64,000 bases of DNA, taken from assembly GCA_014055495.1 (NCBI GenBank), contig WIAG01000002.1, positions 62,001 to 126,000 on the forward strand. The letters are read 5' to 3'. Below the pieces are notes generated by a model. That model was not told the DNA's origin, ran no database searches, and saw only the letters and a list, made by a program, of their open reading frames with translations. Below are positions 16,187-38,716 of the stretch, in pieces. A program made the position numbers and the translations under genes. Origin of the DNA: Nitrospira sp. CR1.2 (lineage in GTDB: Bacteria; Nitrospirota; Nitrospiria; Nitrospirales; Nitrospiraceae). Position 1 is the stretch's first letter; each line of letters opens with the position of its first letter.

Positions 16187-16711
16187 TCAAGGCTTCATCA
16201 GCGACTTCCAGAAAAACAGTTTGGCCCAGAAGAAACCGGCCCACGGAAGAAAATAGGATGCCAGCGGATGAACCGCGCCATAGACCACGGCGACGGTTGA
16301 GCCGAACAGCAACAACGCCAAACCCGCTATGTAGGCAACAGGGGCCCAAGGGGATCCGCTCGGAGCATCGTGGCTTTTCCCGCTCTCCCGTTTCGGTTTC
16401 CCTGTCTTGGTGAGGCTGGGCTGCCGCATGCGCACGGCAAAGACCTCAGGCCGATTGGCCAAGATCCACCGGTGATACGTCGTCTGGAGCCATCCCAACA
16501 CCCCGCCCAACAACAGCAATCCGGAGCTTTCGAGAAAGGTCGCCCAGCTGTAGGTGTCGGTGGCAATGAGTTGATAGCCTAAGCCACCGACTCCGCCGAG
16601 CAAGGAAATCAGGCCAAGGATACCGGCCGGAAACAACATGTAGGCTTTGATATAGGCCGTCGCGCGAGCGTCGTGCCCTTCCTGCTGCTTCACTGAGACA
16701 AGCTTCGGCAT
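16187..16711 (-). CDS. Hypothetical membrane protein
   Basis: 174 aa with several hydrophobic segments (LLGGVGGLGYQLIATD.., VAYIAGLALLLFGSTVAVVYGAV). Confidence 0.6.
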   Translation of the reverse strand: MPKLVSVKQQEGHDARATAYIKAYMLFPAGILGLISLLGGVGGLGYQLIATDTYSWATFLESSGLLLLGGVLGWLQTTYHRWILANRPEVFAVRMRQPSLTKTGKPKRESGKSHDAPSGSPWAPVAYIAGLALLLFGSTVAVVYGAVHPLASYFLPWAGFFWAKLFFWKSLMKP

Positions 16712-17009: not shown

Positions 17010-19085
17010 TTAGTCCATCGGTAGGATGTCGAAAATGGCCGCTCGCTCCACCCGTCCGACATCTACCCATTGCTGAGCGAGGGGAATCAGCGTGACCAGC
17101 CGCTCTTCCAGAGCTGCGAGGCGTTCTCGGATCGCAGCCGGCTTGTGTTGTGCCGTGACACGCAGAAAGGTTCGGAGTCCCTGCAGAAAAAGCTTGATAT
17201 TCTCCGCCGATACCTGTTCGGCCGAACCTGACAAGACATCGATTTCGTCAAAAATCGGCTCCAGCGATTGAGGAGACAACTGCCGTTCCTCGCCGGCGCG
17301 CGCGATACGCCGGAGCGTTTCGATCACCATCGGCACGCGGGCCTGCATGTGCGCAAGGAACCGTTCATCCAACTGCTCCAGCTCGTCCAGCATCCGTCCG
17401 ATCGCCCGCGCATCCACCATTGTTGCTCCACCGGCAATCTCCCGCTCCGCCCGATGGATCACCGCCTCCAGGACGTCCCGTACCGGTTCTTGCGAACGGC
17501 CACGTGCCAGATGCAATTGCCGCAACGCATCGAGAATGGGCAGCGCAGCCGTCCGCCGAGGCGCCTGGCGCGTTCCCTCGATCGGTTCGATCATCGCCGC
17601 TAGGTCAGTAGGCGGAGTCTCCTTGAGCGCCTCATCACTCGCCGTTTCCTGGTCGCCTCGATCGGCAGGTGGTTCAACCTTCTCTGAGACCGGCTCCAGT
17701 TCCCGCACGGTCTTGCTGATTTCCAGCAACCCCTCTCGCAACGACGCGACATGATGCGCTGCCACGGCCCGCTCATGTCTGGCAGCCGCCTGCAGGAGTG
17801 GGAACAACCTGGTCGCCATCTCTTCCAGACCGCTCAATCCAACGGTCGCAGCAGAGCGCGCCAGATTACCGACACTTTGCCAGAGTATCGTTGCCAACTG
17901 CGTACGACGCGCCTGTTCACTCGTGGCATCCAGTCGCTCTAGGGCCGTCTGAATTTGATTGAGCCACTCCCTGGCCTCCAATACAAATAGACCTAGAATT
18001 TCCCGTCGGACCGGAATCGTGGCCTCCGCCGCCTCTGTACCTGTCGAGGCCAGCGGTGCAGCCGGCCGAATCGCAGGTTGATCCACGGCAGCCTGAATGA
18101 CCCCCGCAATGGCATCAAGACTTTCCAGCAAGGCGGCAAATTGATCGGACACGTTGGTCGCCACGGCAGATGCTGACGTGGCGGGTGACACCGACTCGAA
18201 GCTAACGCGCTCCAGGGCCGGCGGCTCGACGGTGTCGACCACCGACACATGGGGCTGCAGACTCAAGTCGACCAGTCGCAGTATTTCGGACGTCGAGGTG
18301 TCCTCCAGGCCCGTGACTCGCACTACCGGGCGAGAGGGGTAGCGGGCGGTGATACGTACCACCACACCTTCTTCCCCGCTGCTGAGCCGCACCCTGGTCC
18401 CAAGGGGATAGACCGACAACTGTTCAACTAACGCTTTCATGATTTCGCGGGGAAAGGCGGTACGTTCCGTCGAGAGCAACTCGCGCACAGCCTCATGCGG
18501 CAACAAGCGCCGACGATACGGACGCGGGCTGACCAGCGCATCAAAGATGTCCACCAGACCGATGATTTGGGCTAATTCGTTGATCTCACGCCCCTTCAAG
18601 CGATGCGGATATCCCTGTCCCTTTCCCCGCTCATGCGCCTGCAGCACGACTTCGGCAAGCCACTCATAGTCCGCACCGAGCCGCTTAATGACATCGTGCC
18701 CCATCCGGGGATGTTGCTCAACGAGGCCCCGCTCCTCGACCGACAGGCGACCGGCTTTCGTCAACAGCTGCTGCGGAACCGCAAAAATTCCGATATCGTG
18801 CACCAGGCCGGCCAACGCCAGTCGTTGCAGCTCGGTTCCATAATATCCAAGGCCCACGCCGACTTTCGTGGCCAGAATGCTGACGTTGATGAGATTGGTG
18901 ATCAGCGGAAGACCGGGGGGGCTCGACAACGCCTCAACGACTAACTGATCGCTTATGTGAAGCGAACCGACGATGGCAGAAGCCAGTTGCATGAGCTCGG
19001 AGAGATCGACGTCTTCATGCTGCTGGACGGCCGCGGCCACTTTTGCAAGCGCTACCTCCGCTTGCCGGTAGTGATGCTGTTCCAT
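17010..19085 (-). CDS. HD-GYP domain protein with C-terminal degenerate Hpt-like domain and extra alpha-helical domain
   Basis: GLVHDIGIFAVPQQLL ... HERGKGQGYPHRLKG (HD-GYP signature); EAREWLNQIQTALERL...VGNLARSAATVG (Hpt-like without His). Confidence 0.85.
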   Translation of the reverse strand: MEQHHYRQAEVALAKVAAAVQQHEDVDLSELMQLASAIVGSLHISDQLVVEALSSPPGLPLITNLINVSILATKVGVGLGYYGTELQRLALAGLVHDIGIFAVPQQLLTKAGRLSVEERGLVEQHPRMGHDVIKRLGADYEWLAEVVLQAHERGKGQGYPHRLKGREINELAQIIGLVDIFDALVSPRPYRRRLLPHEAVRELLSTERTAFPREIMKALVEQLSVYPLGTRVRLSSGEEGVVVRITARYPSRPVVRVTGLEDTSTSEILRLVDLSLQPHVSVVDTVEPPALERVSFESVSPATSASAVATNVSDQFAALLESLDAIAGVIQAAVDQPAIRPAAPLASTGTEAAEATIPVRREILGLFVLEAREWLNQIQTALERLDATSEQARRTQLATILWQSVGNLARSAATVGLSGLEEMATRLFPLLQAAARHERAVAAHHVASLREGLLEISKTVRELEPVSEKVEPPADRGDQETASDEALKETPPTDLAAMIEPIEGTRQAPRRTAALPILDALRQLHLARGRSQEPVRDVLEAVIHRAEREIAGGATMVDARAIGRMLDELEQLDERFLAHMQARVPMVIETLRRIARAGEERQLSPQSLEPIFDEIDVLSGSAEQVSAENIKLFLQGLRTFLRVTAQHKPAAIRERLAALEERLVTLIPLAQQWVDVGRVERAAIFDILPMD

Positions 19086-19250
19086 TGCCCTCGGCCCTCA
19101 CCCGAATGAACGTGTCAATAGAGTCATCGTTGCGGAGCAAGACCAACAGGCTGGAGAGGCACTCGGCGGAACGCCGGACTCCCTCACGATGTCGGCATTT
19201 CCGCTCCACGGGAGCAGGAGTTCCTTGTGCCCCAAACAGGTTGAATCGGC

Positions 19251-20225
19251 TCAGGCGGCAGGAACGAGGCGGCTCATCGCCTCGAACTCTCTCTGTCCGG
19301 TCGTAATCCACTCTTCAATCATGCCCGCCATTACAAGAATCCGACTCTCCACCGAATGCAGGCGACGCTCCTCCACAGGTATACGACGCTGAAGGAGCAA
19401 AGAGAGGAAATTCTGAAGGCCGGTGAGAAAGGTCACGAGGACCGTCGCATTCGTCTGCTTCGCCATGCTCTGGAGATGCTCGATTTTCTCCAGCGAACGT
19501 CCAAGGGGCGGTTCCGGTTCGGCGACACCCGCGCCCTCAACTCTCAGCCGACTCACAGACCTGGCGATGCCGGGCAACTCCTGCATCAGTGAATTCAAAC
19601 AGTGCGCATCCGTCTTGTGGAGTTCATCGAGGATCTGTTGAAATGTTGCGGCCTGAATCACTTCTCCTCCCTGACGGGCCTCATGCTCAAACCGCTGAAG
19701 CACCAGTGGAATGAGACTGCGGGACATGTTTGGGTTTGTAGGCTGCCGGTCCTGTAAGGCACGCAGCGCATTCAAGAGGGTCAGGAAATCGATGGCGGGC
19801 TCTGGTGTCGGCGCGGCCTCTGCGGGTGGTTCCAATTCGAGGGCGATACCCGTGGCATCTTTGACGCAGGCAACGACAATCCGGAACTGCTCACGGACCG
19901 TGTTGAAATCCTGTTGGGTGACCGTCGTACGATCTTTGAGCGTTTCAATATAAGGGAGGAGCGCGAACGTGGCCCGCTCGACCTCGGGGAGATCGATCGT
20001 AGCGGCAGAACCGCCCAAACTGGTGATGGCCCGTACGATCACATCGACCAATTGTGCGTGTCGCTCGAAGTCCGGTTGGCTTTCGAGCTCAGTCAGTGCT
20101 GAATGAATCTGCACGAGCCACTCCTGCGCCTCTTGGCCGAATAACTCGATCAGTTCTCTCTGAAAATCGTCTTGGGTTTGTTCTGCGTCCATAAAGAGGG
20201 CAGTATCCAACTTCGATTGATTCAC
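19251..20225 (-). CDS. Stand-alone degenerate Hpt-like protein, paralogous to the C-terminal half of the HD-GYP protein
   Basis: EAQEWLVQIHSALTEL...AITSLGGSAATID; C-terminal half colinear with the HD-GYP protein. Confidence 0.7.
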   Translation of the reverse strand: MNQSKLDTALFMDAEQTQDDFQRELIELFGQEAQEWLVQIHSALTELESQPDFERHAQLVDVIVRAITSLGGSAATIDLPEVERATFALLPYIETLKDRTTVTQQDFNTVREQFRIVVACVKDATGIALELEPPAEAAPTPEPAIDFLTLLNALRALQDRQPTNPNMSRSLIPLVLQRFEHEARQGGEVIQAATFQQILDELHKTDAHCLNSLMQELPGIARSVSRLRVEGAGVAEPEPPLGRSLEKIEHLQSMAKQTNATVLVTFLTGLQNFLSLLLQRRIPVEERRLHSVESRILVMAGMIEEWITTGQREFEAMSRLVPAA

Positions 20226-20255: not shown

Positions 20256-21731
20256 CTATCGCCTCCCGGAACCCAGCTGGGATGCGAGGCCGGCAATCTC
20301 TCCCAACTTCCTCGCGAGGTCTTCGAACCGGCGGGACGATTGCTCGGCCATTTGCTCAGCATCGGCCGTGCGCTGCGCCAACTGCTGAGCGCGCTCTTGT
20401 TCAGCAGCCAACGCCTGTTCCAACTCCTGGATGCGCACGGATCCCTCTTCCAACTGTTTGACTTGCGCGAGCAACAGAGCGCTCGCTTCACGCTCGGCAG
20501 ACAACGCGCCCTCAAGCTCGACCATCTGCGCACGAGTCTTTTCAGCAGTTTCTTCGAGGGCGGGTACCGTACGCGCCACCTTTTCCAACTGCGCCAGCGC
20601 GTTCCGGTGCGTCTCGGATTCTTCGCGCTCTGCCGCGAGCATCCGCTCCAACTCGCGCACACGCTCTTCAACATGTTCGAGGTTGGTGATCTGTTGAACC
20701 AATTGATTTGCAGCCTCCCGCTCTGCCTCCAGATGGGCCTCTAACTCTGCAATTCTTGCCGCGTGGTGTGTCGCATCAGACAGCTGCTGGGACAAGTGCT
20801 CCATACGATTCCGCTCTTCTGCCAGTGCCGCTTCCAATTCTTCGACTCGTTGCCTTTGTCTCGACAGGTCTTCCAGTTGTTGGGTCAGGACAGCCCGCTG
20901 AGCACGTTCATCCATCACGCTCTGCTCCAGCAGTTGCACACGTGAGGTCATCGCCTCGCCTTGTTCCCGCTGTTCGTCTAATGCCTGCCGAACCCGCCGC
21001 ACGTGCTCAAGACTCGATTGCCGTTCCTCCGCGAGCTGTGTTTCGAGCTCAGCAATTCTGGCATCACGCTGAGCCAACAGCGCCTGACTTCGTTCCTCGG
21101 CCTGAGCGGATACATCTCGCGCGCCATCATGATGGATGGAAGTTTCGTCCACAGAGAGTTCATGGCTGAGGGGCAGCACCACCGCCTCCGGCACATTCAT
21201 GGTGATGGGCTCACACGACTGCAGTGCTTCCACACGCTCCTGAAGAATCGGAACAGTGTCTCGCTGAATCGAAAGCACCGGCGCCGCTGGCGTAGACTCG
21301 CTCAGCGCAGACTCTGAAAGGCTTTCCTGATGAGGAGCCTCGGACATGGCCCCAGACTTGTGCGGCCGCTTGCTCAACAGGTCCAATACGCGATCCTTCA
21401 ACGAGGATCCCTGAAACGGTTTCTTCAGCACTCCATCGGCCTTGCAGCTCTCAGCTTGGCGTGACACTTCGTCGTTCACAATCCCGCTGATCAGCAGCAC
21501 CGGAAGGTCCGCCAGATTGGCCTGCCCACGCACGTAGGCGCACACCTCGTAGCCGCTCTTGTCAGGCATGATCACATCAGAGACGACCAAGTCTGGCCGG
21601 TCTTTCGCCAGTAACGCCAGCGCTTCGGATCCGTTTGCCGCCAGAGTGACTCCCATTCCGGCCTCAGTCAAAAGGCGTTCGGCTACTTTACGAACTGCGA
21701 TGCTGTCGTCGGCGATCAAGATCTTTGGCAT
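20256..21731 (-). CDS. Response-regulator receiver domain with long coiled coil
   Basis: MPKILIADDSIAVRKVAERLL..DLVVSDVIMPDKSGYEVCAYVR..GVLKKPF receiver; about 300 aa Glu/Gln/Arg-rich heptad region. Confidence 0.85.
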   Translation of the reverse strand: MPKILIADDSIAVRKVAERLLTEAGMGVTLAANGSEALALLAKDRPDLVVSDVIMPDKSGYEVCAYVRGQANLADLPVLLISGIVNDEVSRQAESCKADGVLKKPFQGSSLKDRVLDLLSKRPHKSGAMSEAPHQESLSESALSESTPAAPVLSIQRDTVPILQERVEALQSCEPITMNVPEAVVLPLSHELSVDETSIHHDGARDVSAQAEERSQALLAQRDARIAELETQLAEERQSSLEHVRRVRQALDEQREQGEAMTSRVQLLEQSVMDERAQRAVLTQQLEDLSRQRQRVEELEAALAEERNRMEHLSQQLSDATHHAARIAELEAHLEAEREAANQLVQQITNLEHVEERVRELERMLAAEREESETHRNALAQLEKVARTVPALEETAEKTRAQMVELEGALSAEREASALLLAQVKQLEEGSVRIQELEQALAAEQERAQQLAQRTADAEQMAEQSSRRFEDLARKLGEIAGLASQLGSGRR

Positions 21732-21756: not shown

Positions 21757-22236
21757 TCATCCAGCGTGACGGCTCGATGAAACCCCCAGGGTTGCCAGGT
21801 TGATGATAGGAAGCTGTTCACCGGCGGCAACACACAGTCCGGCACAGTCCGGATCGTCGCCGATGTGATACTGTATGGACGAGCGCGACACCATCTGCAA
21901 CGAGGGCACCTCGGGATCGATACGAATGGCCAGCGGTCCGTCCACATGTTTCACGACCAGGCACAAAGACTCGCCTTCCCGCATCGTTCGTTTGAACTTC
22001 TCAGCAAGGTCAAACACCGGCAGACACCCCTCTTCCTGCCGGACCAGCGAGGTCACGAACGGTGTCTCGCTCGGGACTGGAATGGCACCTGTCCATGACA
22101 CAACACCCGCGACCTCTTCGGTCCTCGCGGCCATTCGTTTCCCGGCTACTGCAAACACGACCATATGCTGAGGACGCCCCCCTCCGGTGCCTCTTGTCGC
22201 CGTCGTTTCCTGTTTGCGAAGCTGACCGCGCAACAT
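21757..22236 (-). CDS. CheW-like protein
   Basis: QHMVVFAVAGKRMAARTEEVAGVV...VTSLVRQEEGCLPVFDLAEKF; start inferred inside the longer ORF. Confidence 0.7.
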   Translation of the reverse strand: MLRGQLRKQETTATRGTGGGRPQHMVVFAVAGKRMAARTEEVAGVVSWTGAIPVPSETPFVTSLVRQEEGCLPVFDLAEKFKRTMREGESLCLVVKHVDGPLAIRIDPEVPSLQMVSRSSIQYHIGDDPDCAGLCVAAGEQLPIINLATLGVSSSRHAG

Positions 22237-22258
22237 CCTCGATCCTCGACCGCGGCGA

Positions 22259-22822
22259 TTATCCGGCGTGACCGACCGGGACGGCATCAAGCGTAGCCAC
22301 GGGTAACTGGAGCCGGCCCTCAGTCTCCCCAGATCGGTGCTCTGACAGGCACAATACGAACACATCGAGTGCATTTTTCCGACTCGGGAAATCCAATATC
22401 CAAAATGGGTTGGCAATCAGGGCCACAGAGTCTTTCTCGGCAAACAATCCCAGCAATCGATCACGCTCTGCGCCGCGAAAATGCGCCGGCAGGGGTTGGA
22501 TCATGGTTCGTTCCACATCGACTATTCCCACCACCCTGTCCACGGCAAAGGATCGGCGCTGGTGATCGTGCCCGTACAAAACCACCCTCGTCTCAGCACT
22601 CCGCCCCTGAGACGCCAGCTTCAAACGCCCAGCGAGATCACTGGGCTCGTAGGACGCATCGGCCCAGGTCAGCACCCCATCCCGCCCTACACTTGTCGGT
22701 ATCACGATACCCCGGACCCACTGTGCCGGGAGTGCGATGGAAGAATCCCCGATCAGCGTCACCAGAAATCTGACCGCCTGGCTGCTGGTCAAGGTGACTG
22801 TCTGACTTTGCCTGAGACCCAT
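22259..22822 (-). CDS. Divergent CheW-like protein
   Basis: VRFLVTLIGDSSIALPAQWVRGIVIPTSV...DLAGRLKLASQGRSAETRVVLYGHDHQRRSFAVDRVVGIVDV. Confidence 0.65.
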   Translation of the reverse strand: MGLRQSQTVTLTSSQAVRFLVTLIGDSSIALPAQWVRGIVIPTSVGRDGVLTWADASYEPSDLAGRLKLASQGRSAETRVVLYGHDHQRRSFAVDRVVGIVDVERTMIQPLPAHFRGAERDRLLGLFAEKDSVALIANPFWILDFPSRKNALDVFVLCLSEHRSGETEGRLQLPVATLDAVPVGHAG

Positions 22823-22869: not shown

Positions 22870-25800
22870 CTACTTTTCCACCCCGGCTTCACGCCCCGTC
22901 CACTTGCGCACTTCCTGGATTAAGGCCCGCTCTTCGACCGGTTTGGCGATATAGCCGGACGCGCCGACACTGACGGCCATCTGTCGATGTTTTTCTCCTG
23001 CCCGCGTGGTCATCACCAGAATCGGCGTACTGTGGGTCTGAGGCCGCGCGCGAAGAGCCTGAATCACTTCATAGCCATTCAGTTTCGGCATTTCGAGATC
23101 GGTAATGATGAGCTGATACGGCTGCACCATGGCTTTCCGGCACCCTTCTTCGCCGTCGGTCGCCGTGTCCACCCTATACCCGGCAGACTCCAACATCCGA
23201 CCGACGAACTTCCTGATGCTGAGCGAGTCATCGATCAACAGGAGCGGCAATTGAGTGGCCGTGGGCGGTGTTGAATCGGGAGAAACCGGCGGCTCCGGAT
23301 GAGCTGTCAGGCCCAAGGTGTGGCTGTTGGACAACGCGTCATGATACTCGCGCGTCGTCAGGCGGCTGACGTCCAATACGAGAATCACGCGGCCTTCCGG
23401 GTCGATCGTAGCACCGCCGAACACCGACCGTTCATACGGCTTCAGACCGCCCAGAGACTTAATGACGATTTCCTGGCGCCCCAGCAGTTCGTCCACGGCA
23501 CATCCGAGGACGCCGGTGGAGGTCCGTACGACGACCACGGGGGAGACGCCCTGAATGGTGCCTGCTTCCCGGCGGATGAGACTTGCCAGCGGGTGGACTT
23601 CGATCGCCTCGTCCCCGATTTGTAATACGGAGCGATCCCCCATCTGCTGCATCGTCGAGGAGGCGGACATGGTCACTTCCCGCACACTCGGGAGGGGAAT
23701 CGCGTACCGCTCACCGCCGGCCCGCACCACCAACGCCGTCGCGATCAGCAGGGTGAGCGGCAAATGCATCGTAAATTTCGTGCCCTGCCCGTACACCGAC
23801 TCCACCTCGATGTGGCCGTTCATCGTCTCGATGACACGCTTCACCACATCCATACCGACGCCGCGTCCCGCGTGCCCGCCGACGGCGTCAGCGGTGGAGA
23901 AGCCCGGCAAAAAGATAAACTTGATCACTTCACTTTCGGGAAGCGTCTCGGCTACGTCCTGCCTCACCAGACCCAACTTCACCGCCTTCGCTCGGATCTT
24001 TGCGAGGTCGAGGCCGGCCCCATCGTCCTCCACTTCAATGAGCACAGAATTGCCTCGATGGGCGGCGTGAAGATAAATCGTGCCGGCCGCCGGTTTTCCC
24101 TGCGCGACACGGAGGGCCGCCGGCTCGATACCGTGGTACACCGCGTTCCTCACGAGATGAACCAACGGATCGACCAACCGCTCCACAACACCGGTATCGA
24201 TTTCGGTCTGTTCACCGGAGATCACCAAATTGACCTTTTTCCCCGTGGCTCTCGCCATCTCCCGGGCAGCGCGACGAAACCGGGTAAAAGGTGTTCCGAT
24301 CGGCACCATACGCGCGCGCGCGATTTCATCGCGCATGCTCAAGGTCAACTGCTGCAGCGACCCCATGTCGTCTTGCGCGCGGTGGATCGACCCGGACAGC
24401 TGTGCCATGGATTCCGAAATATCGGCGGTCACTTCGCTGATTCGACGCGCCAGAATATTGAAGTCGTCGTACCGATCGAACTCCAGACTGCCGAAATCGC
24501 TGATTCCCGACACCTCCGGAGGTATCCCTCCCTCGGCAGGCGCCGGAGACGGCTGGAAGGAAAAGGTGTGTTTGTCCTCGAAGGTGCGCACGGCATCGGT
24601 CAAACGATTTTTGTTGGCCAGAACCTGCATGGCAAGTTGATTCAACGTCCGAAGACGTTGTTCGAGACGGCCTCGATCGATGACCAATTCGCCGACCAGA
24701 TTCAGCAGGCGTTCCAAACGGTCGCGGCTGACACGGATTACCTCCCGCTCTTCTCCCGTTTTTCCTTCCCCTGATGCGACCGCATCCGCGCCGTCGTTTT
24801 CGGCTGCCTCACTTTCAGATATCACCTCGGTAAGGTTCTGCGAGGACTTAGGTACGGAAGCCACCGCTGGGAACGCACCGCCTAAATTCGTGAGTTCCAG
24901 CAGCGACGCGGCGAACCGCTGTCTGGTTCGACTCAGGAGGGAAGGATCACGCCGCATGAGGCTTCGAATCACATCGATCGCACGGAGTAATACATCCGTA
25001 TGGCCAGGACGAAACTGGAGACGCCCCTCGCGAACCGCCCCCATGAAGTCTTCGATGTGATGGGTCAGATCTCCGATCGATTGGAAACCGACGGTATAGG
25101 CCGACCCCTTCAACGTATGAGCCGTGCGAAACAACTGATGAATCGTGTCCGGATTGGTTGCGTCCTGGTCTACCCGCAACAGATCGGCCTCGAGACTGTC
25201 GAGATACTCCTGAGCCTCCGGAGCGAAATACGAAATCACCTCCGCATCGAGCGAAGGGATCAAGTAGGCTTCGGGCAGTTCTTGGTCGTGATTTGCCGCA
25301 GTGGAGTGGACAGGCACCGCCGACTCCACGGCTTGTGCCGCCCCCGCCTGCAAAGCAACCTGCTCCTGCCGCGCTCCGAATGGTTCGGCGTCGTTGGAAT
25401 GGTTCCCACCCTGCTGCAGATCGTGAAGCATGGCCAGGATACAGGGGACGTCCTGCCGCAACTTCGGCAACTGCTTCGGCTCTCGTGCCATCAACGTCCG
25501 CATCACATCCACGGCATGCCGAATCGTCGCGATCCAATGTGGCGCCATGCCGGCGGTGCCCTCACGGACTGCGGTCATGCAGGTTTCGATCGGATAGGCC
25601 ACATCTCCTACCACCTGACAGCCGACCGTGTAGGCAGACCCCTTGAGCGTGTGCGCGACTCGATACAACTGATGAATCGTATCGGCATCGGCCATGTGTT
25701 GTTCCAACCGCCGGAGCAGCGTCTGAATGGTGTTGAGGTATTCCTCCGCTTCAGGAGAGAAGTAGGACAAGACCTCGTCATCAATGATAGGGATGAGATA

Positions 25801-26250
25801 GTCGTCGGCGGGAGCAGTCAGGGCTTGGACCGAATCTGATGCCGACTCCCTCGCCGCCTCAGGCAGCACAGCGGCACAACGGCGGACAAAGCCTTCGACG
25901 ACTGACGCGTCTTCCCCTCCCCCACGCCCGATGTGGGCGACCTGCGCCCGAAAGGAGACGACAATCTCACGCATGACCTCGATGGCTTGGGGCCATGCGT
26001 CGGGAGCGATCTCCCCGACTCGTTCCAAGGTCTCCTCCAGCAACGCGCCGAGTCGCCCAAGACCTGGAAACCCATACAGCAGCGCCGCCCCCTTCAATTT
26101 GTGTCCGACAGTATGCAAGTCCGCAACGTCGGCGGGGGCAGGAGTCCCCTTATCCTCAGGGTGCAACGCCTTCCAGAACTTGGCCATATCGTCACCGGCT
26201 TCGGCGACGAAGATGCCCAACAGCTGGTCGCGGTCAAAATCAGCGCTCAT
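22870..26250 (-). CDS. cheA: Hybrid CheA-type histidine kinase with three Hpt domains and C-terminal receiver
   Basis: Hpt motifs GHKLKGAA, AHTLKGSAYTVG (x2); N-box HLVRNAVYHGIE; CheW-like domain; C-terminal receiver LLLIDDSLSIRKFVGRML..LIITDLEMPKLNGYEV. Confidence 0.92.
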   Translation of the reverse strand: MSADFDRDQLLGIFVAEAGDDMAKFWKALHPEDKGTPAPADVADLHTVGHKLKGAALLYGFPGLGRLGALLEETLERVGEIAPDAWPQAIEVMREIVVSFRAQVAHIGRGGGEDASVVEGFVRRCAAVLPEAARESASDSVQALTAPADDYLIPIIDDEVLSYFSPEAEEYLNTIQTLLRRLEQHMADADTIHQLYRVAHTLKGSAYTVGCQVVGDVAYPIETCMTAVREGTAGMAPHWIATIRHAVDVMRTLMAREPKQLPKLRQDVPCILAMLHDLQQGGNHSNDAEPFGARQEQVALQAGAAQAVESAVPVHSTAANHDQELPEAYLIPSLDAEVISYFAPEAQEYLDSLEADLLRVDQDATNPDTIHQLFRTAHTLKGSAYTVGFQSIGDLTHHIEDFMGAVREGRLQFRPGHTDVLLRAIDVIRSLMRRDPSLLSRTRQRFAASLLELTNLGGAFPAVASVPKSSQNLTEVISESEAAENDGADAVASGEGKTGEEREVIRVSRDRLERLLNLVGELVIDRGRLEQRLRTLNQLAMQVLANKNRLTDAVRTFEDKHTFSFQPSPAPAEGGIPPEVSGISDFGSLEFDRYDDFNILARRISEVTADISESMAQLSGSIHRAQDDMGSLQQLTLSMRDEIARARMVPIGTPFTRFRRAAREMARATGKKVNLVISGEQTEIDTGVVERLVDPLVHLVRNAVYHGIEPAALRVAQGKPAAGTIYLHAAHRGNSVLIEVEDDGAGLDLAKIRAKAVKLGLVRQDVAETLPESEVIKFIFLPGFSTADAVGGHAGRGVGMDVVKRVIETMNGHIEVESVYGQGTKFTMHLPLTLLIATALVVRAGGERYAIPLPSVREVTMSASSTMQQMGDRSVLQIGDEAIEVHPLASLIRREAGTIQGVSPVVVVRTSTGVLGCAVDELLGRQEIVIKSLGGLKPYERSVFGGATIDPEGRVILVLDVSRLTTREYHDALSNSHTLGLTAHPEPPVSPDSTPPTATQLPLLLIDDSLSIRKFVGRMLESAGYRVDTATDGEEGCRKAMVQPYQLIITDLEMPKLNGYEVIQALRARPQTHSTPILVMTTRAGEKHRQMAVSVGASGYIAKPVEERALIQEVRKWTGREAGVEK

Positions 26251-26297: not shown

Positions 26298-28172
26298 CTA
26301 CACCAGCTTGAACTGGGCGACCGACGAGTTGAGACCTTCGGCCAGTTTGGCCATGTCTTCGATGGTCAACCGGGTCGAATCTGTCTGCTTCTGGGTCGCC
26401 ACGGCACCGCCGGTAAACTCCTTGATCGCTCGACCGACCTTTTCCGTCGAGGCCGTTTGGTCGGATGCCGCACCGGCGATATTTTGTGCCAATTCGGATG
26501 ACCGCTTCGCGATGTCGGAAATTTCCGCGAACACGTCGCCGGTTCGAAGGGCGGAGGCCGATCCTGCTTCCACCGCCTGAGTTTCGTGCTCCATCGCCAC
26601 CACGGCATCCTGCGTTTCGGTCTGAATGACTTTCACCAGGTCGGCGATTTCGCGGGTCGCTTGGGTGGAACTTTCCGCCAGTTTTCTGACTTGATCGGCG
26701 ACGACCGCGAACCGTGCACCGGCCTCACCTGCGCCCGCCGCCTCGATGGCGGCATTGAGCGCGAGGAGGTTGGTTTGATTGGCGATCTCTCGAATCGTCG
26801 ACACGATCTGTGAGATTTCGAGTGAGCGGTCGCCGAGGCCTTTGACCTGCTTGGACATGCGTTGCACCGCGGAACGAATACTCTGCATGTCGCGCACCGT
26901 TTCCTGCACCGCAACGTTTCCGCGCTCGGTCGCGGACAACACCTGCTTCGCGGACTCGGATGACGCACCGGCTGTGCTGGCGACTTGACGCATACCGGCG
27001 GCCAACTGCTCGACCGCGCCCAAGGTTCGCACCGACTCCTCCGCCTGAGCTCTGGCCGTTCCCGACATCTGCCCGGCCGAATCTCGTAAGGTTCCTGCTG
27101 ACTTGTTTACCCGGTCGGCCGCTTCCCGCACCTGCTTCAACAACTGTCCGAATCGGGCGATCATAAGGTTGAACCCGTCGGCCAGGTTTCCGAACATGTC
27201 GGCCGTCACCTCGCCTCGCTTGGTGAGGTCTCCCTTACCGACCTCGGAGACGAGCACAAGGAATTGCATGAGACGCTTCTGCATGAGGTCGCGTTCTTCT
27301 TCGGTCGACACCAGCGAGGTAATACGGTCGAGCATCGAATTGAATGCGGTGGCCATTTGTCCCAACTCATCGTGCGACTCGATCTTCGCGCGCGCCTGCA
27401 GGTTGCCGCCGGCGGCCTGAGTCGCTACGTTGGCAATGTGTGTAATGTTGCGGGACAAGAACATCGCCAGGAGGTAACCGACGAATAACCCGAGTCCCAC
27501 CGCCACCACACCGCCGACCACAAGAATGAACGTACCGTTGGTCGCGAGCGCCTGCGCATCGTCGTTGAGGTCTTTGGCAATCGCCTCAATGGTCGTCACT
27601 TGCTCGTTGTGTCGCTTCACGACGTTGTCGAACGACGGCGTCAGGTTGACCGTCAGTGCCAGGACACCGAGCGCGCGCATTTGCTCAGCTTGAGATGCGG
27701 AAAGCGTGTTGCGATCGAAACTGTCGGCCAGAGCGCTCAGAGCGCCGGCGGCATCCTGAAAGTATTTCTTCAGAGCCGGCTCGAACAGGGCGAGGTCGGC
27801 CTGTTCGTCTCGCCCCGTCCGCGACACGCGCAGGTTGGTGCTCTTGTAGCGATTGACCGCTTTTTCAATCTCCGCTTTGAGCGCAGGGAGCTTGGCCGCG
27901 TCCTGAGCAAAGTCCCCCTGTTTCGTCGCCGAGGCCACGTCCAGCAGAATTTGATGATGCTTGGTCAGCGCCGTTCCCATCTGAGCAAAATCGGCCAAAG
28001 ATACGGTGTAGTCCGCGTACACCGTTTGGGAGTGCGTACTCAACTGCTGCAGCGTGAACACACCGACACTGGCCATGATCATGATGATGAGACTGACCAG
28101 ACCGAAGCCGAGAAACAGCTTCGATCGTGTCTTCATGTCCTGAAATCGATTCGTGACGCCTTGGCCGATCAT
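26298..28172 (-). CDS. Methyl-accepting chemotaxis protein (periplasmic helical sensor, HAMP, signalling domain)
   Basis: Two TM segments; [51 protein letters not shown] hairpin tip. Confidence 0.92.
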
Positions 28173-28817: not shown

Positions 28818-29180
28818 TTAATTCAACGCCCGCTTCACTGCGGCGACCAGGTCTTCGGCCTTGAATGGTTTCACCACGTAGCCGTTCGCGCCCTGCTGTT
28901 GCCCCCAAAACTTGTCGCTCTCCTGCCCCTTGGACGTGCACAGCACGATCGGGATCCCCTTGAAGCGGTCGTCACTCTTCAGGTCGCGACAAGCCTGAAA
29001 TCCATTGCGGCCGGGCATCACCACGTCCAACACGATCACATCCGGTTTATCCAATGCCAACTTGTCTTCCAATTTGTCGGCATTGGGATAGGAGACCACC
29101 GTATGGTTAGCGGACTTCAGATACCCTTCGATCAACTGCAACTCGGCGTACGAGTCATCCACGACGACGATCTTACTCAT
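28818..29180 (-). CDS. CheY-like single-domain response regulator
   Basis: MSKIVVVDDSYAELQLIEGYLK..DVIVLDVVMPGRNGFQACRDLK..GYVVKPFKAEDL. Confidence 0.93.
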   Translation of the reverse strand: MSKIVVVDDSYAELQLIEGYLKSANHTVVSYPNADKLEDKLALDKPDVIVLDVVMPGRNGFQACRDLKSDDRFKGIPIVLCTSKGQESDKFWGQQQGANGYVVKPFKAEDLVAAVKRALN

Positions 29181-29241: not shown

Positions 29242-29976
29242 CTATTTCATCGGAATAACAATGCTGATGGCGCCGGCGAGATCCCCTTCATGCCAACCCT
29301 CTTTTTTGGCCCCTGTCACATCGCGATCACCCTTGGGATTGCCGTGACAGCTGAGACACGTGGTCGCGGCATACTCCGGGTCCATCATGCGCAGCACCGG
29401 CCGTCCGTCGAGCATCGTCGTTCGGCTGTACGGCTGCCCCTTGGGATGGCGCGTGTCGGCAAAGAGTCTCAACACTTCGGCCTCAAAATCATCCGGGCGA
29501 TTTCCGGGATACCGATAGTCCGTACTGGTCAGCTTCACGCGAATTCCGGTTTTACGAAAAAACCGCTCGCCGGATTTTCTGGCGAAGACCGCGGGGATCA
29601 TGCCCTTAAACCCGACCCCCTGCTTGTTGATCACGGGCTGCGCCTCATCGATCACTTCCTTTTCCGATTCCACCATGGCAAGGAACAACGGCCCCTGCGG
29701 CACCGTTGCAGGCCGGCTCAAATCGATCTTCGTCGCTTTGCGAAAGCGTTCAATCACCTGATTGGCCACGAAGTCGCCGGTAAATCCCTTGTCGCCTTTG
29801 CTGGAGTCGTTGATAATCGCCTGGTGTTCTGAGAGGACGCCGCGTCCGACTTGCACCAATTTGATGAGCAGTTCGGCCGTTTCCACTTCGGTATTGGCCG
29901 ATACGGGCACGGCCATCCCGATACTTGTCGCCGTCAGTACCGCCACCAGGATTCTGCTGATGCAATGGTTCGCCAT
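29242..29976 (-). CDS. Secreted c-type haem protein, DUF3365/Tll0287-like
   Basis: Signal peptide MANHCISRILVAVLTATSIGMAVPVSA; CLSCHG haem motif; GFKGMIPAVFARKSGERF; ATG at 29976. Confidence 0.75.
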   Translation of the reverse strand: MANHCISRILVAVLTATSIGMAVPVSANTEVETAELLIKLVQVGRGVLSEHQAIINDSSKGDKGFTGDFVANQVIERFRKATKIDLSRPATVPQGPLFLAMVESEKEVIDEAQPVINKQGVGFKGMIPAVFARKSGERFFRKTGIRVKLTSTDYRYPGNRPDDFEAEVLRLFADTRHPKGQPYSRTTMLDGRPVLRMMDPEYAATTCLSCHGNPKGDRDVTGAKKEGWHEGDLAGAISIVIPMK

Positions 29977-30369
29977 GGCCCCTCCTTCTCCCTGCCTCCC
30001 GGTCGCCCGGAACACGCCATCGCCTAAGTCCGCTGATCTATTGTCAAAGATAGCGCAAAAATATCGATTGACAATTGTATGGACACGGGGAGCCCGCGTC
30101 AGTCCCCTGTGACCCCGGGCAGGCTTGTGCACAATTGGTGCCAAACAAAACACATACTTAGCGCGAAGGAGCCAGATCGAGGCCCGAGCATGAAGTCGGC
30201 GATTTTGCGGATGAATCGGTGCGGGAAACGACGCTCCCCCGAGTTGTGGCACAGAACCAACCCGGCACCCTCGCTGTTCAAGATTATGAAGGGAGCGCCA
30301 AAGTTTGGTCGCTTTGGAAGGGAAGCGTCAAAATGACCGTCTGGGCCACCTCTGTTCCACGGTCAGCGA

Positions 30370-31941
30370 TTACCGGCCCGTCTGTGAACGAAGGATGGTC
30401 CAGATTGGAGTGAGATCGAGGTGCTGCTCAACATGGTCGGCCCAGCGGTCCAGCACATGCCGTTGGGTGTCGTTCACTTGCTGAGAACGTGCGCGCTCCA
30501 CCGGCACGAGTCCTTTTCTACGACGCAGTCGATTCAACCAGGTACGCCGAAACTCCGGGCGATCGAACAGTCCGTGAAGATAGGTGCCCCAGACCAGCCC
30601 ATCCTCCCGCACAGCTCCGTCCAAGGAGCCACCGTCCGGCCCCCCGCCATGAAACTGATCGGTGGATTGCACCGCGTTCCGATGGAGATGAAAACAGGGA
30701 CGATGGGGACCGGAATCTGTGCGTCCCATGTGAATGACGTACCCGCGGACCGACACCGGGCCTTCGTCCTGAAGATGCAGCGCAGAGGCGTCGACCTGTC
30801 CAGTGATTTTCTCCGGCATCATGATGGTGTCGATCTGCAACAATTCCAATCCGGTGGCCTGCCCGCCGGTCTCTACGCCATCGGGATCGGCAATCCGACT
30901 GCCCAACATTTGGTAACCGCCGCAGATCCCGAGCAACTCCCGTCCGCGATGGACATGGTCCCGCACGACCGCGTCAAACCCCTTCGCGCGCAGGTAGGCC
31001 AGGTCTGCCAACGTGCTCTTCGACCCGGGGATGATCACTGCATCGGCTCCCGCCGCCTCTGCCGGCGTCGCGACGTACCGAAGGGCCACATCGGCTTCTT
31101 GGATCAACAGGTTGAAATCCGTGAAATTGCTCATGTGCGGCAGCAACAGGACCGCGATGTTCACGCGATCGTCCGCAAAGGCCGCCTGATGCCGCGCTTC
31201 GACACCCAGACTGTCCTCCTGATCCAGCGTGAGGTCACGAAGAAAGGGCAGCACGCCCAGTACCGGAATCCCCGTCCGCTCATGGAGAAACCGGACCCCG
31301 TCTGCAAAGAGTGCCCGGTCGCCGCGAAATTTGTTGATCACGAGCCCGCAGACCCTGGCGCGTTCCTCCGGCGTGATAAGGTCCAGCGTCCCGATCACTT
31401 GGGCAAACACGCCGCCGCGATCGATATCGCCCACCAAGACCACTCGGGCATCCGCTAATTCCACCGTCGCCCAGTTGACCAAGTCACGGTCACGCAGATT
31501 CACTTCGGCGGCGCTGCCGGCCCCCTCGATCACGATCACGTCAGAGTGCGCGGCGAGCCGTTCGTAGCTGCTCCGCACTGCCTGGAATAATGTCGAATTC
31601 CGGCCGCGCGAAAAGTACGCCTGCGCGTCCAACGTGGAATGGACCTTCCCCTGTACCACCACCTGCGCCCTGGCATCGGATTCCGGTTTCAGCAGAATCG
31701 GATTCATGTCCACATGAGGAGCAAGGCCGCACGCCTCAGCCTGCAACGCTTGCGCGCGCCCGATTTCTCCGCCTTCCGAAGTCACGAACGAGTTGAGCGA
31801 CATGTTCTGCGCCTTGAACGGGGCTACCCTGATTCCCGCCCGATGCAGCAATCGGCAGAGACCAGCCACCACCAGGCTCTTTCCGACATCGGAGCCGGTC
31901 CCGAGAACAGCTATCGCTCTGGCACGTGTAGCGTGAGCCAT
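30370..31941 (-). CDS. cobQ: Cobyric acid synthase
   Basis: VLGTGSDVGKSLVVAGLCRLLHRAGIRVAPFKAQNMSLNSFVT; GLELLQIDT..; GATase ELLGICGGYQMLG. Confidence 0.95.
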   Translation of the reverse strand: MAHATRARAIAVLGTGSDVGKSLVVAGLCRLLHRAGIRVAPFKAQNMSLNSFVTSEGGEIGRAQALQAEACGLAPHVDMNPILLKPESDARAQVVVQGKVHSTLDAQAYFSRGRNSTLFQAVRSSYERLAAHSDVIVIEGAGSAAEVNLRDRDLVNWATVELADARVVLVGDIDRGGVFAQVIGTLDLITPEERARVCGLVINKFRGDRALFADGVRFLHERTGIPVLGVLPFLRDLTLDQEDSLGVEARHQAAFADDRVNIAVLLLPHMSNFTDFNLLIQEADVALRYVATPAEAAGADAVIIPGSKSTLADLAYLRAKGFDAVVRDHVHRGRELLGICGGYQMLGSRIADPDGVETGGQATGLELLQIDTIMMPEKITGQVDASALHLQDEGPVSVRGYVIHMGRTDSGPHRPCFHLHRNAVQSTDQFHGGGPDGGSLDGAVREDGLVWGTYLHGLFDRPEFRRTWLNRLRRRKGLVPVERARSQQVNDTQRHVLDRWADHVEQHLDLTPIWTILRSQTGR

Positions 31942-31957
31942 CGCACTCCAGCCTGAT

Positions 31958-32689
31958 TTACCGGCGATGCGTCGCCGCCCATTGCGCGGCGCGTGCGAGC
32001 CCTTCGATCACACAGTCGCTCACCACAAGGCCGATCATAGAACCGAGGTCGGTATGCGTCCCCGCATACGCATGCCACGGACCACGTCCACGCAGGGCAC
32101 AGACGGCGACTACCGCATCCGTCCCCGTCCCTGTCGCACCGGGCGAACCGGACCAGCTGGAGACGGCATGATCGCGCAAGACGCCGGTCTTCGCCTCCGT
32201 GGCGACCTGTACCACACCGACCAGCGCCGGACCCGCCAGGCAGGCGTTCGTCACCACAATCAGATTAATTGTTCCGGCCTTGCCGTGCCACACAGGCCCT
32301 TCCCCATGACCAGGCGGTTCACCGGCCCGCACGGCATTGGTAATCCCGACGGTGGCAAAACATTCCACCCAGAGATCATCTCGTTCCTCTCGGCGGCTCA
32401 CCACCTGCGTCATGGGCACCGCCGTCATCAGGCCGACGCAATCCGGCTCAACAGCAAGTAAGCCGGCAAGCCGCCGCAGATAGCGAGAAGGATGCTCCCA
32501 CGTTCTCCCTTCGACATTCGGTGCGGGATTCGAGGGCACCTGATGATTGAGAATGTAGCGAGTGGTTCGCAGGCCTCCGCCCCGTGGTGCCGAGGACAAG
32601 ACACGCATGCGAGTGCCCAGATCAAGGATCAGCGTCTCGCGGGCTATACGCGATTTGGTGTAGAAGCGATTCGACCGATGTCCGCTCAT
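31958..32689 (-). CDS. cbiZ: Adenosylcobinamide amidohydrolase (CbiZ family)
   Basis: LSSAPRGGGLRTTRYILNHQVP..VGLMTAVPMTQ..FATVGITNAVRAGEP..GTINLIVVTNACLAGPALVG..TGTGTDAVVA. Confidence 0.85.
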   Translation of the reverse strand: MSGHRSNRFYTKSRIARETLILDLGTRMRVLSSAPRGGGLRTTRYILNHQVPSNPAPNVEGRTWEHPSRYLRRLAGLLAVEPDCVGLMTAVPMTQVVSRREERDDLWVECFATVGITNAVRAGEPPGHGEGPVWHGKAGTINLIVVTNACLAGPALVGVVQVATEAKTGVLRDHAVSSWSGSPGATGTGTDAVVAVCALRGRGPWHAYAGTHTDLGSMIGLVVSDCVIEGLARAAQWAATHRR

Positions 32690-32700
32690 TCTGCCACTCG

Positions 32701-33801
32701 TCACACACACGACAAGGCCTTCAGGAGCCGATCATTCTCGCGTCTTGTTCGCACCGCCACCCGCAACGAGCGATCGTTCAATCCCGGGACGTGCGTACAG
32801 TCGCGCAGCAACAGCCCCTGCCGTCGCAGCACCGACACCGCTCGGGTGGCCTGCTGTCCGACCGGCAGTTCCAACAGAATGAAATTCGCCTTGGTTGGAA
32901 ACGCCCGGACGCCGGACAGCCGTTCAAGCCCACGCTGTAACCTGATCCGTTCTCGATCCATGAACTGCAGGCTGCGCCGGCGATGTCGATCGTCCTGCAA
33001 AGCCGCCACGGCCACTTGCTGCGCCAGCATGTTGACAGACCAGGGAGGTTGCTGCTCGCTGAGTTGTTGCACCACGACGGGCGATGCAACCGCATACCCC
33101 ACACGGAGGCCTGGCAGCGCATAAAACTTGGTGAAGCTGCGCAGCACAATGGTCCTGGGCGGAAGGGTCTTCCCAAGAATCGACACCGACTCACAATAGT
33201 CAGCAAACGTTTCGTCGACCACACACCAGAGTCCGAGACGCGCTGCCTCACGAGCAAGCGTCCGCACGGCCCCTGCCTCCCAGGCGACGCCGGTCGGGCT
33301 ATTGGGATTGCAGAGCAGCACGGCATCGAGGGGACGCGATCGCGTCCCCGCTCGTCCGGCCTGTCGCATGGCCTCCAAAACCAGTTCCAGCCTGGGCCGG
33401 TAGGAATCCGTCTGCCCGGCCAGCACGGTGCTGACCCGTCCTCCGGATCGTGCCATCGCCGACGTGTATTCCGAGAAGGTCGGACCAACCACCAACAGAT
33501 GCCCAATTCGCAAGGCTGCGGGCAGAAGATGGATCAACTCCGTCGAACCGTTTCCAATGATAAAGGCCTGCGGTGAACGCCGCCAGTAGGCGGCGAGTGC
33601 CTGCCGAAGATCCCAGCACAGCGGATCGGGATAATGGCACAGCACGGTCCTCGCACGACTGAGCATCCGGAGGACGGCCGGTGATGGACCTAGCGGATTA
33701 ATGCTCGCGCTAAAATCGAGCAATCGATCGGGCGCGCGTCCCAGTTCACGAGCTGCGCCGTACACATCCCCGCCATGGACCGCCCGCCTCATGACACCCA
33801 C
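32701..33801 (-). CDS. cobC: Threonine-phosphate decarboxylase/aminotransferase-like cobalamin protein
   Basis: VHGGDVYGAARELGRAPDRLLDFSASINPLGPSP; NPNSPTGV; VLRSFTKFYALPGLRVGYAVA. Confidence 0.88.
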   Translation of the reverse strand: MGVMRRAVHGGDVYGAARELGRAPDRLLDFSASINPLGPSPAVLRMLSRARTVLCHYPDPLCWDLRQALAAYWRRSPQAFIIGNGSTELIHLLPAALRIGHLLVVGPTFSEYTSAMARSGGRVSTVLAGQTDSYRPRLELVLEAMRQAGRAGTRSRPLDAVLLCNPNSPTGVAWEAGAVRTLAREAARLGLWCVVDETFADYCESVSILGKTLPPRTIVLRSFTKFYALPGLRVGYAVASPVVVQQLSEQQPPWSVNMLAQQVAVAALQDDRHRRRSLQFMDRERIRLQRGLERLSGVRAFPTKANFILLELPVGQQATRAVSVLRRQGLLLRDCTHVPGLNDRSLRVAVRTRRENDRLLKALSCV

Positions 33802-34745
33802 AAGGACAACACGGCAAAGAACAGACCGAGCGCATAGGTGACCAGCATGATGCGGGTTGCCTGATCGATATGTTCGGGAGCCACCTCCGCCGACCCATCA
33901 CCAATCCGTTCGGCATCGTGGGGGACGCCGTCGTAATAGTTCCGCCCTCCGAGTTGCACCCCCAACGCCCCGGCCATCGCGGCTTCCGGCTGACCGCTGT
34001 TGGGACTGGCATGCTTGTCCCCGTCCCGATGCAGGATGTACCAACTCTCATGGATGCGATGCCACTGCCCGGTGGACAAGCCGGCAGCCAGCGCGATGAA
34101 GCCGCCCGTCAGTCGAGCAGGCACCCAGTTCAGCACATCATCCAACCGGGCGGAGGCCCAGCCGAAATGTTCATGCCGTTCATCGCGATGTCCGATCATG
34201 GAGTCGAGCGTACTGACAGCCTTATAGGCCAGCGCCAGCGGCGCGCCGCCGAGCGACAGATAGACCAGCGGGGCAATGATCCCGTCCGAGGCGCTTTCGG
34301 CAATGGTCTCGACGGTCGCGCGCGCAATCTCCGGCTCCGTCAACGCGGCGCTGTCCCGCCCCACGATCATGGCAACCGCCTTTCGCGCTCCGGCCAGATC
34401 GCCGGCCGCCAGGGCCCCGGCTACCCTCTGAACATGGTCGTAGAGATCGCGCCCGGCTAATGTCGTCGAGGCCAGGCCGACGCCGATCGCCTGTCCCAGG
34501 ATCGGGTGGCTCGCAAGAGCCTGAGTCATCACCCATGTGGCAGCCCCATAGACCGCCGCAGGAAGACCGAGCGCCAGACAGACGCCGGCGATCTGGAGGG
34601 CCTGCTCGCTCCGGCAGATGGTGCGGATACGATGATCGATCCAACCGATGACCACACCCATCCCCCGCACCGGATGGGGCAACCAGCGGGGATCTCCCAC
34701 CGCAACATCGAGCACCGCTGCGAGCGATAATTCGATGCCGGTCAT
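33789..34745 (-). CDS. cbiB: Adenosylcobinamide-phosphate synthase
   Basis: AVLDVAVGDPRWLPHPVRGMG; ESASDGIIAPLVYLSLGGAPLALAYKAVSTLDSMIGHRDERHEHFGWASARLDDVLN. Confidence 0.95.
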   Translation of the reverse strand: MTGIELSLAAVLDVAVGDPRWLPHPVRGMGVVIGWIDHRIRTICRSEQALQIAGVCLALGLPAAVYGAATWVMTQALASHPILGQAIGVGLASTTLAGRDLYDHVQRVAGALAAGDLAGARKAVAMIVGRDSAALTEPEIARATVETIAESASDGIIAPLVYLSLGGAPLALAYKAVSTLDSMIGHRDERHEHFGWASARLDDVLNWVPARLTGGFIALAAGLSTGQWHRIHESWYILHRDGDKHASPNSGQPEAAMAGALGVQLGGRNYYDGVPHDAERIGDGSAEVAPEHIDQATRIMLVTYALGLFFAVLSLWVS

Positions 34746-35620
34746 CGAGTCATCACCAAGACCGGCACGAAGAGGAGAAACAGGATCTCGATCAGCTCAT
34801 TGGTGGCACCGAGGAGATCGCCGGTCACGCCGCCGAACCAGGCGCGGCATCCCTGCCGTACCAACAGGATCAGCGCCACTCCCAATCCCATCGTGACCAA
34901 TGACGACACTGCGCCCAAGGCTGCGCTGAGGGCCACGACCAACACCAGGCTGCAGAGCAGAACATGGTGCCATGACAGGTTCATGAGAAACGCCGATGCC
35001 AAGCCTCCATCGCGCCGCGCAGAGGGAGAGCCCCAGGCCACGCAGACCATGGCCCAACGCCCCACCGCCGGCATGCAGAGCAACGCAGGAAGACGCCAGG
35101 GTTGCGGAAGGGCGAGTAGGCCGGCATAACGCAGCAAGAGCGACAGAAACAGCCCGGTCGCGCCGAGTGCCCCGATACTCGGATCGCGCATGATACGCAG
35201 CCGGTCGTCCACCATCCGTCCCCCCGCCAATCCATCGACTGTGTCCGCGAGTCCGTCTTGATGGAGCCCGCGCGTGAGCAAGGCCAGCAGGACAATCAAC
35301 AACACGTTCACCACCTCAGGCGCCACCCACCAGCGCAAGCCTTGGTCGATCAGCGCCAGCACCCCGCCGATCATCAGCCCCACCGTGGAATACCAGGCCA
35401 TCGATGCCGCCAGTTCCTCCGCCGTCACATCATGGTGGCGACGGCTGATCGGAATGGCGGTGAGAAAATGCCAGGCCAAGATGAACGGGCGGACCAAATC
35501 ATGTCCAACTGGCGACGCGCGAGCACCGTCGCGACGCGGATGCTGCGCGCGGAGCCCGGATTCCACCGGAGACGAACCCACCGTATCTCCGGTGCCTTCG
35601 CTCGGCATATCACGCTTCAC
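34742..35620 (-). CDS. cobS: Adenosylcobinamide-GDP ribazoletransferase
   Basis: AWHFLTAIPISRRHH; LTRGLHQDGLADTVDGLAGG; MRDPSIGALGATGLFLSLLLRYAGL. Confidence 0.93.
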   Translation of the reverse strand: MKRDMPSEGTGDTVGSSPVESGLRAQHPRRDGARASPVGHDLVRPFILAWHFLTAIPISRRHHDVTAEELAASMAWYSTVGLMIGGVLALIDQGLRWWVAPEVVNVLLIVLLALLTRGLHQDGLADTVDGLAGGRMVDDRLRIMRDPSIGALGATGLFLSLLLRYAGLLALPQPWRLPALLCMPAVGRWAMVCVAWGSPSARRDGGLASAFLMNLSWHHVLLCSLVLVVALSAALGAVSSLVTMGLGVALILLVRQGCRAWFGGVTGDLLGATNELIEILFLLFVPVLVMTR

Positions 35621-35623
35621 CTG

Positions 35624-36682: not shown

Positions 36683-36695
36683 GTCATGCTCCTCG

Positions 36696-37253
36696 TCATT
36701 TCAGTCTGAGCGATTGGCCGGCAATGACAACATACACTTCGTCTGCCGCGGCGGCCAATTGCTGATTCACGCGGCCGGCAAGATCCCGGAAGGCGCGCGC
36801 AGCCCGGCTCATCGGCACCAATCCAAACCCCAGTTCGTTACTCACCAGCACGACCCTCGCGGGAGTCCGTCGAATAGCCTGGACCAGTTCATCCACGGTG
36901 TCGGTCAGATCTTTCCCGACAATGCGGAGGCCACAGACATTGCTCACCCACAGGGTCAGGCAATCGACCACGATCGTGCGGTACTGCGAGCCCTCCGACC
37001 GAAACCAGTCCGTTAACGATCGAGGCACCTCCGCCGTCGACCAATCGGCCCCACGTGTCGCCCGGTGCCGCTCGATGCGCGCCTTCATTTCGCCATCCAG
37101 CGCTTGCCCGGTCGCCACGAACGCCTTCGGTCCCTTACGGCCGGCCTTGTCCAATGCCGCCTGGCTTTTTCCCGATGCCGCTCCGCCCAGCACCAGAATG
37201 AGACGGGACCGCGAACGCCGTCGCGGTCTCCTCGACTTACTTACCGGAGGCAT
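36696..37253 (-). CDS. cobU: Adenosylcobinamide kinase/adenosylcobinamide-phosphate guanylyltransferase
   Basis: LILVLGGAASGKSQAALDKA P-loop; VVDCLTLWVSNV; VLVSNELGFGLVPMSRAARAFRDLAGRVNQQLA. Confidence 0.93.
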   Translation of the reverse strand: MPPVSKSRRPRRRSRSRLILVLGGAASGKSQAALDKAGRKGPKAFVATGQALDGEMKARIERHRATRGADWSTAEVPRSLTDWFRSEGSQYRTIVVDCLTLWVSNVCGLRIVGKDLTDTVDELVQAIRRTPARVVLVSNELGFGLVPMSRAARAFRDLAGRVNQQLAAAADEVYVVIAGQSLRLK

Positions 37254-37833: not shown

Positions 37834-37912
37834 TCGTGTTCCCCAATCCTTTCCTGTATTTCGTCCGCAGTCCTGTTCTGAACGTCGCAACGGCCTGCGG
37901 GATCCCCGGTCA

Positions 37913-38715: not shown

Positions 38716-38716
38716 G

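Follow-up and report, generated by a model that had tools for sequence, protein, structure and literature searches.

AHP6 of plants is a pseudo-HPt: it has the Hpt fold without the phosphorylatable His, acts on the His-Asp phosphorelay and inhibits cytokinin signaling. In Pseudomonas, FimL of the Pil-Chp system contains two Hpt-like domains with a Gln at both acceptor sites (PMC3019171); its interaction partners are the receiver PilG and the polar hub FimV, and it brings PilG to the pole or helps to keep it there (PMC10519157). Many multi-Hpt CheA proteins contain Hpt domains without the His, the role of which is described as undetermined (PMC10782961). The same goes for ChpA, in which the His-less Hpts do not become phosphorylated in vitro (PMC10782961); for the unphosphorylated Xpt domains of this kinase, a scaffolding role has been put forward (PMC12632253).

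Here, we analyze two proteins, S and F, encoded side by side in a stretch of 64,000 nucleotides from Nitrospira sp. CR1.2 (the window). They have Hpt folds without the His in a type IV pilus-class system, as is the case for the Hpt, Tpt and Spt domains found in ChpA and in other CheAs with several Hpts. However, the His-less domains of ChpA sit inside the kinase, whereas S and F are separate proteins and the three Hpts of their own kinase are intact. FimL, too, is standalone and His-less, and its two Hpt-like domains show homology to a CheA-type kinase; S has one such domain and probably a second. The acceptor positions are Gln in FimL but Thr in S. FimL regulates cAMP via CyaB, and no HD-GYP paralogue is described for it (PMC3019171, PMC10519157), in contrast to S and F. 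The comparison of S with FimL is one of design, made by published description, and implies no membership in a common family. Similarly, no common descent is implied with AHP6, which is eukaryotic and has a single domain. S and F are encoded at the end of the following set of genes.

28818 to 29180, minus strand: CheY-like single-domain receiver, 120 aa
28269 to 28814, minus strand: CheW (Pfam)
26298 to 28172, minus strand: MCP with 4HB sensor, HAMP and MCPsignal (Pfam)
22870 to 26250, minus strand: CheA-type hybrid kinase with three His-bearing Hpts and a C-terminal REC
22259 to 22822, minus strand: CheW-like protein 1 (Pfam)
21757 to 22416, minus strand: CheW-like protein 2 (Pfam)
20256 to 21731, minus strand: REC and coiled-coil protein (REC-coil), with a phospho-Asp as judged by sequence and a gene immediately upstream of that for S; proposed partner for docking
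19251 to 20225, minus strand: S (P0002), standalone protein of 324 aa with two helical bundles, each without a phospho-His (open reading frame, alignment, AlphaFold2)
17010 to 19085, minus strand: F (P0001), 691 aa, with a degenerate HD-GYP domain, a beta extension and an S-like tandem Hpt-like module

The gene order is CheY-CheW-MCP-CheA-CheW-CheW-REC-coil-S-F, followed by a gene for a small membrane-like protein, and it is conserved across two Nitrospirales families with S and F as the operon end. The gene immediately upstream of S encodes REC-coil in 102 of 105 testable loci. Because the longest frame of CheW-like protein 2 overlaps the previous gene, its true start is likely near 22251. 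The order CheY-CheW-MCP-CheA and a multi-Hpt CheA with an added REC place the operon in the type IV pilus (Tfp) chemosensory class; the operon is Pil-Chp-like. The host genome encodes PilM and also the flagellar protein FliG and, therefore, gene content does not settle the output organelle.

The neighborhood of the operon has further features. Downstream of F, at 16187-16711 of the window, lies a gene for a 174-aa protein with several hydrophobic stretches and a position that is conserved in Nitrospiraceae loci; it has no match in Pfam or NCBIfam. Just upstream of the operon, at 29242-30252, a Tll0287-like protein of the heme-binding type with a CxxCH motif is encoded, also at a position conserved in relatives; a redox input to the operon through this protein is possible. 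Farther upstream, 30370-45544 contains cobalamin-related genes (CobQ/CobB-type, CbiZ) and genes for a TonB receptor and an ABC ATPase. In several relatives, a gene for an ExeA/GspA-like AAA ATPase (YWGLxxxPFDNVPDPRF...LTGEIGCGKT) is located between S and F (L144:10961-11845, L100:11024-11827 and L064:10594-11418); the window has no such gene.

An earlier note on this DNA read S and F as containing Hpt-like domains that have lost the phosphorylatable His. The motifs on which this reading was based, VGNLARSAATVG in P0001 (aa 405-416; 17838-17873, minus strand) and ITSLGGSAATID in P0002 (aa 67-78; 19992-20027, minus strand), as well as the segments EAREWLNQI (17952-17978) and EAQEWLVQI (20106-20132), were found where the note had placed them. 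The parts of the two proteins that concern us here are as follows.

19842 to 20174, minus strand: S domain 1 (aa 18-128), His-less Hpt bundle (Pfam Hpt, PDB profile match, AlphaFold2, Foldseek 1tqg, hhalign)
20022 to 20024, minus strand: codon of Thr68, the phospho-His position of S (alignment, PDB profile, hhalign)
19260 to 19787, minus strand: S domain 2 (aa 147-322), probably another Hpt-like bundle, strongly eroded (AlphaFold2, profiles; suggestive)
17700 to 18017, minus strand: Hpt-like bundle of F (aa 357-462) with Gly406 at the acceptor position (alignment, AlphaFold2, hhalign, Foldseek)
17868 to 17870, minus strand: codon of Gly406, the phospho-His position of F (alignment)
17025 to 17540, minus strand: second helical bundle of F (aa 516-687), homologous to S domain 2 (AlphaFold2, hhalign)

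Several lines of evidence show a resemblance beyond chance and support the idea that the first domain of S and of F is, as judged by sequence and predicted structure, a CheA-type Hpt bundle in which the entire phosphotransfer site has been lost. First, the Pfam Hpt profile matches P0002 with an E-value of 3.2e-5 (24.5-24.7 bits at a cut-off of 24.6) and 30 of 53 family members (best E-value 9.6e-14); P0001 is matched with an E-value of 0.026 only, below the cut-off. PHROGs and NCBIfam searches with P0002 gave no match. Second, the family profile matches the P1 domain of Thermotoga (Tm) CheA in the PDB at 9e-5, with His45 opposite Thr and Lys48 opposite Gly, and hhalign against CheA Hpts over 100 columns gave 98.7% for the standalone and 98.1% for the fused form. 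Third, the AlphaFold2 model of S has a mean pLDDT of 88 (domain 1 in the mid-90s), and Foldseek matched it to the CheA P1 structures 1tqg, 3kyi and 1i5n, each with a probability of 1.00; the best natural match is 1tqg, with a TM score of 0.77 by target length and an rmsd of 2.5. The model of F, with a weaker whole-model pLDDT of 72, matches 1tqg with a TM score of 0.78 by target length, again at a probability of 1.00. The structure predictions, thus, bear out the Hpt-like bundle that the earlier note had proposed. Outside Nitrospirales, domain 1 has its nearest matches in CheA-kinase-like proteins of 640-820 aa, the N-terminal Hpts of which bear the His; in one example, FREAHSLKGAARAVN and VRAITSLGGSAATID align colinearly without a gap. 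Altogether, S and F have the fold and belong to the sequence family of Pfam PF01627 Hpt/CheA P1, with 1tqg as the closest solved natural structure; however, they lack the phospho-His that defines this family, along with the other active-site residues.

With the Hpts of the CheA of the same operon (AHTLKGSAYTVG) as a reference, the His column corresponds to Thr68 in S and Gly406 in F, in agreement with the substitutions claimed earlier. Among 159 distinct homologues (103 standalone, 56 fused), none has a His at this position: the residue is Thr in 91, Met in four, Ala in four, Ser in three and Ile in one of the standalone proteins, and Thr in 28, Ser in 13, Asn in nine and Gly in six of the fused ones. 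By contrast, CheA Hpts at the same loci carry the acceptor His in a tally made with a motif left open at the acceptor, i.e., with any residue allowed, and the remaining Hpt domains found in the host genome have it in 14 of 14 cases. The loss extends beyond the acceptor. His45, Lys48, His64 and Glu67, which we take to be the active-site network of Tm CheA, correspond to Thr, Gly, Phe and Leu in S in the profile alignment; His64 aligns with Phe87 and Glu67 with Leu90, a column without an acidic residue in the family. The Lys of HxxKG is lost in the homologues, as the earlier note had noticed for the Lys-Gly after the acceptor, and the flanking pattern that it saw retained (S-A-x-T) is part of a nearly invariant LxGSAAT, in which L70, G72, S73, A74, A75 and T76 are kept at 99-100% among 101 standalone proteins. 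dN/dS is 0.07-0.23. Because the CheA-site residues are gone while LxGSAAT is kept and dN/dS is low, the Hpt domains of S and F are, by sequence, dead for phosphotransfer yet maintained by selection.

Three other explanations were considered and rejected. A misalignment of the acceptor column is ruled out because MAFFT, HMMER against Tm CheA and hhalign agree on the register. Pseudogene decay is ruled out by the dN/dS values and the long conserved open frames. A substitute phospho-His elsewhere in the bundle is not conserved: a His lies within eight columns of the acceptor in 24 of 159 homologues, at differing positions, and the His that is often conserved, H41 in the first helix (85% of the standalone proteins), is Lys in the f2 family. 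Neither of the outcomes that the earlier note had named as refuting its reading, a predicted fold other than an Hpt-like bundle or a conserved phospho-His elsewhere in it, was obtained. Thus, the reading of these domains as Hpt-like and without the His is well supported.

S and F share more than the first bundle. P0002 is paralogous to the C-terminal half of P0001 over the whole length that they share, with 25-28% identity and 100% in hhalign, and we conclude that the two are paralogous modules. Aa 147-322 of S are predicted by AlphaFold2 to be helical, the last part forming four helices. This region has no match in Pfam, and Foldseek with the whole S model did not match it separately. When its profile was compared with 76 blocks from other proteins of these operons, the top five were all Hpt2 or Hpt3 of CheA (34.8 versus 17.9 for the best non-Hpt block), and against the PDB it gave a weak match to CheA P1 (E-value 0.08-0.3). 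Domain 2 likewise lacks the acceptor His. The weak profile match suggests that domain 2 is probably a second, more eroded Hpt bundle. Full-length homologues were confined to two Nitrospirales families in our searches, and the contig titles of all but a few matches read Nitrospira or Nitrospirota. Families and genera with one copy have the standalone form only, and in at least one genome (G033, L067) an HD-GYP gene lies unfused beside a standalone S. The simplest history is, therefore, a duplication of S followed by fusion of one copy to an HD-GYP protein, giving rise to F. In another genome (G278, L184:2244-3722), the S frame is 493 aa long through extra N-terminal sequence, possibly a different fusion, and no REC-coil was recognized within 400 bases upstream of this extended S.

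The N-terminal half of F contains two features.

18405 to 18947, minus strand: HD-GYP domain of F (aa 47-227) with altered catalytic-site residues (Ile for the Lys of HDxGK, AHE for HHE)
18216 to 18404, minus strand: beta-strand extension after the HD-GYP domain (aa 228-290; AlphaFold2)

Compared to the active structure 4mcw, F has HDIGI in place of HDIGK and AHE in place of HHE; instead of the full catalytic and metal-binding set (HDxGK, HHExxDGxGYP), it has HDIGI and AHERGKGQGYP. The Ala of AHE is invariant in 34 orthologues. Asn64 presumably takes the place of the first metal-binding His of the HD-GYP signature. Unfused HD-GYP relatives also lack the Lys of HDxGK and one His of HHE, i.e., the degeneracy is conserved family-wide. 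From these residues, the HD-GYP domain of F is probably not a normal phosphodiesterase. In this respect, F resembles its structural neighbors Bd1817 and DvhD, which have an HD-GYP fold with changed catalytic residues; however, these proteins have a receiver where F has the tandem pseudo-Hpt module.

What might such proteins do? Because the His is absent in all relatives while the rest of the domain is under selection, holding partners is more probable than relaying phosphate, and S and F probably hold signaling partners together instead of passing phosphate. Our preferred reading, to which we lean somewhat, is that S and F form a phosphate-free scaffold for docking receivers that works in the manner of FimL. 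Of the functions offered in the earlier note, those of adaptor and receiver-binding scaffold, thus, survive as the best reading, based on the genomic context and FimL. We suggest that the surface around the former acceptor, together with the first helix, would still dock receiver domains, and gene order points to the adjacent REC-coil and/or the CheY of the operon as the most likely receivers. S would position or gate a receiver without carrying phosphate, in the way in which FimL acts on PilG in Pseudomonas. In F, the same docking module would be attached to a degenerate HD-GYP domain that serves for binding or output and does not hydrolyze c-di-GMP, and receiver phosphorylation driven by CheA could thereby reach second-messenger or pilus/flagellar control. 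As the acceptor and neighboring residues drift in F, docking by F may be weaker or different. Moreover, S, F and REC-coil, being neighbors, may share a transcript for unrelated reasons. A wider and decidedly more tentative version is that a family of “dead” tandem Hpt scaffolds arose in Nitrospirales and that one of the copies became fused to a dead HD-GYP domain. These scaffolds would connect a chemosensory kinase of the pilus type to the control of c-di-GMP or polarity, solely through docking that depends on phosphorylation, and would themselves pass on no phosphate; this arrangement would be FimL-like and possibly of independent origin.

Alternatively, the pseudo-Hpts could be decoys that draw receivers away from the genuine CheA Hpts and thereby dampen phosphotransfer, as AHP6 does. 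Such a competitor needs exactly what S and F have, an Hpt fold unable to carry phosphate, and in this operon it would face three intact Hpts and find three receivers. However, the HD-GYP fusion and the constant adjacency of REC-coil fit positioning better than soluble competition, and we regard a decoy as unlikely, if a serious contender. Rather improbable is a purely structural role in which Hpt-derived bundles serve oligomerization or localization with no receiver contact. Some invariant residues (L28, A74, L70) may be mere core positions, LxGSAAT as a whole could be conserved merely through packing of the bundle core, domain 2 is far diverged from any Hpt, and the long coiled coil of REC-coil could bind bundles. 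Against this, conservation peaks at helix A and the former acceptor, i.e., in the receiver-facing helices of CheA P1: mean entropy is 1.15 bits in helix A and 1.64 bits in the acceptor region versus 2.15 bits in helix D and 1.7-2.4 bits in most of domain 2.

Phosphotransfer on Thr or Ser, after which the Tpt and Spt domains of ChpA are named, would agree with Thr being the most frequent residue (119 of 159) as well as the ancestral one, and with the occurrence of Ser. However, a conserved Thr/Ser is not what the family has: the tree of the 159 sequences implies eight changes to or from a non-hydroxyl residue (Met, Ala, Ile, Gly or Asn), six of them forced by well-supported branches. As Thr was lost at least six separate times in this way, as Lys, His and Glu have disappeared from the CheA site as well, and as the His-less Hpts of ChpA remain unphosphorylated in vitro (PMC10782961), transfer on Thr/Ser has very little probability. 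The phosphate sink, also suggested in the earlier note, is extremely unlikely because a sink has to retain phosphate and both domains lack the acceptor His, or any other phosphate-accepting residue.

The full-length paralogy of S and F, the probable Hpt-derived second domain, the degenerate HD-GYP domain and the conserved operon go beyond the earlier note, and our literature search found no paper on this protein family in Nitrospira. His-less Hpt folds are here small separate proteins that are under purifying selection in two families and encoded beside a kinase with intact Hpts. Because they are separate from the kinase, their function is testable by deletion and binding experiments, free of the confusion of a nine-domain kinase. 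In nitrifying bacteria, S and F may join an HD-GYP fold to a chemosensory kinase, a connection of which the literature searched holds no account.
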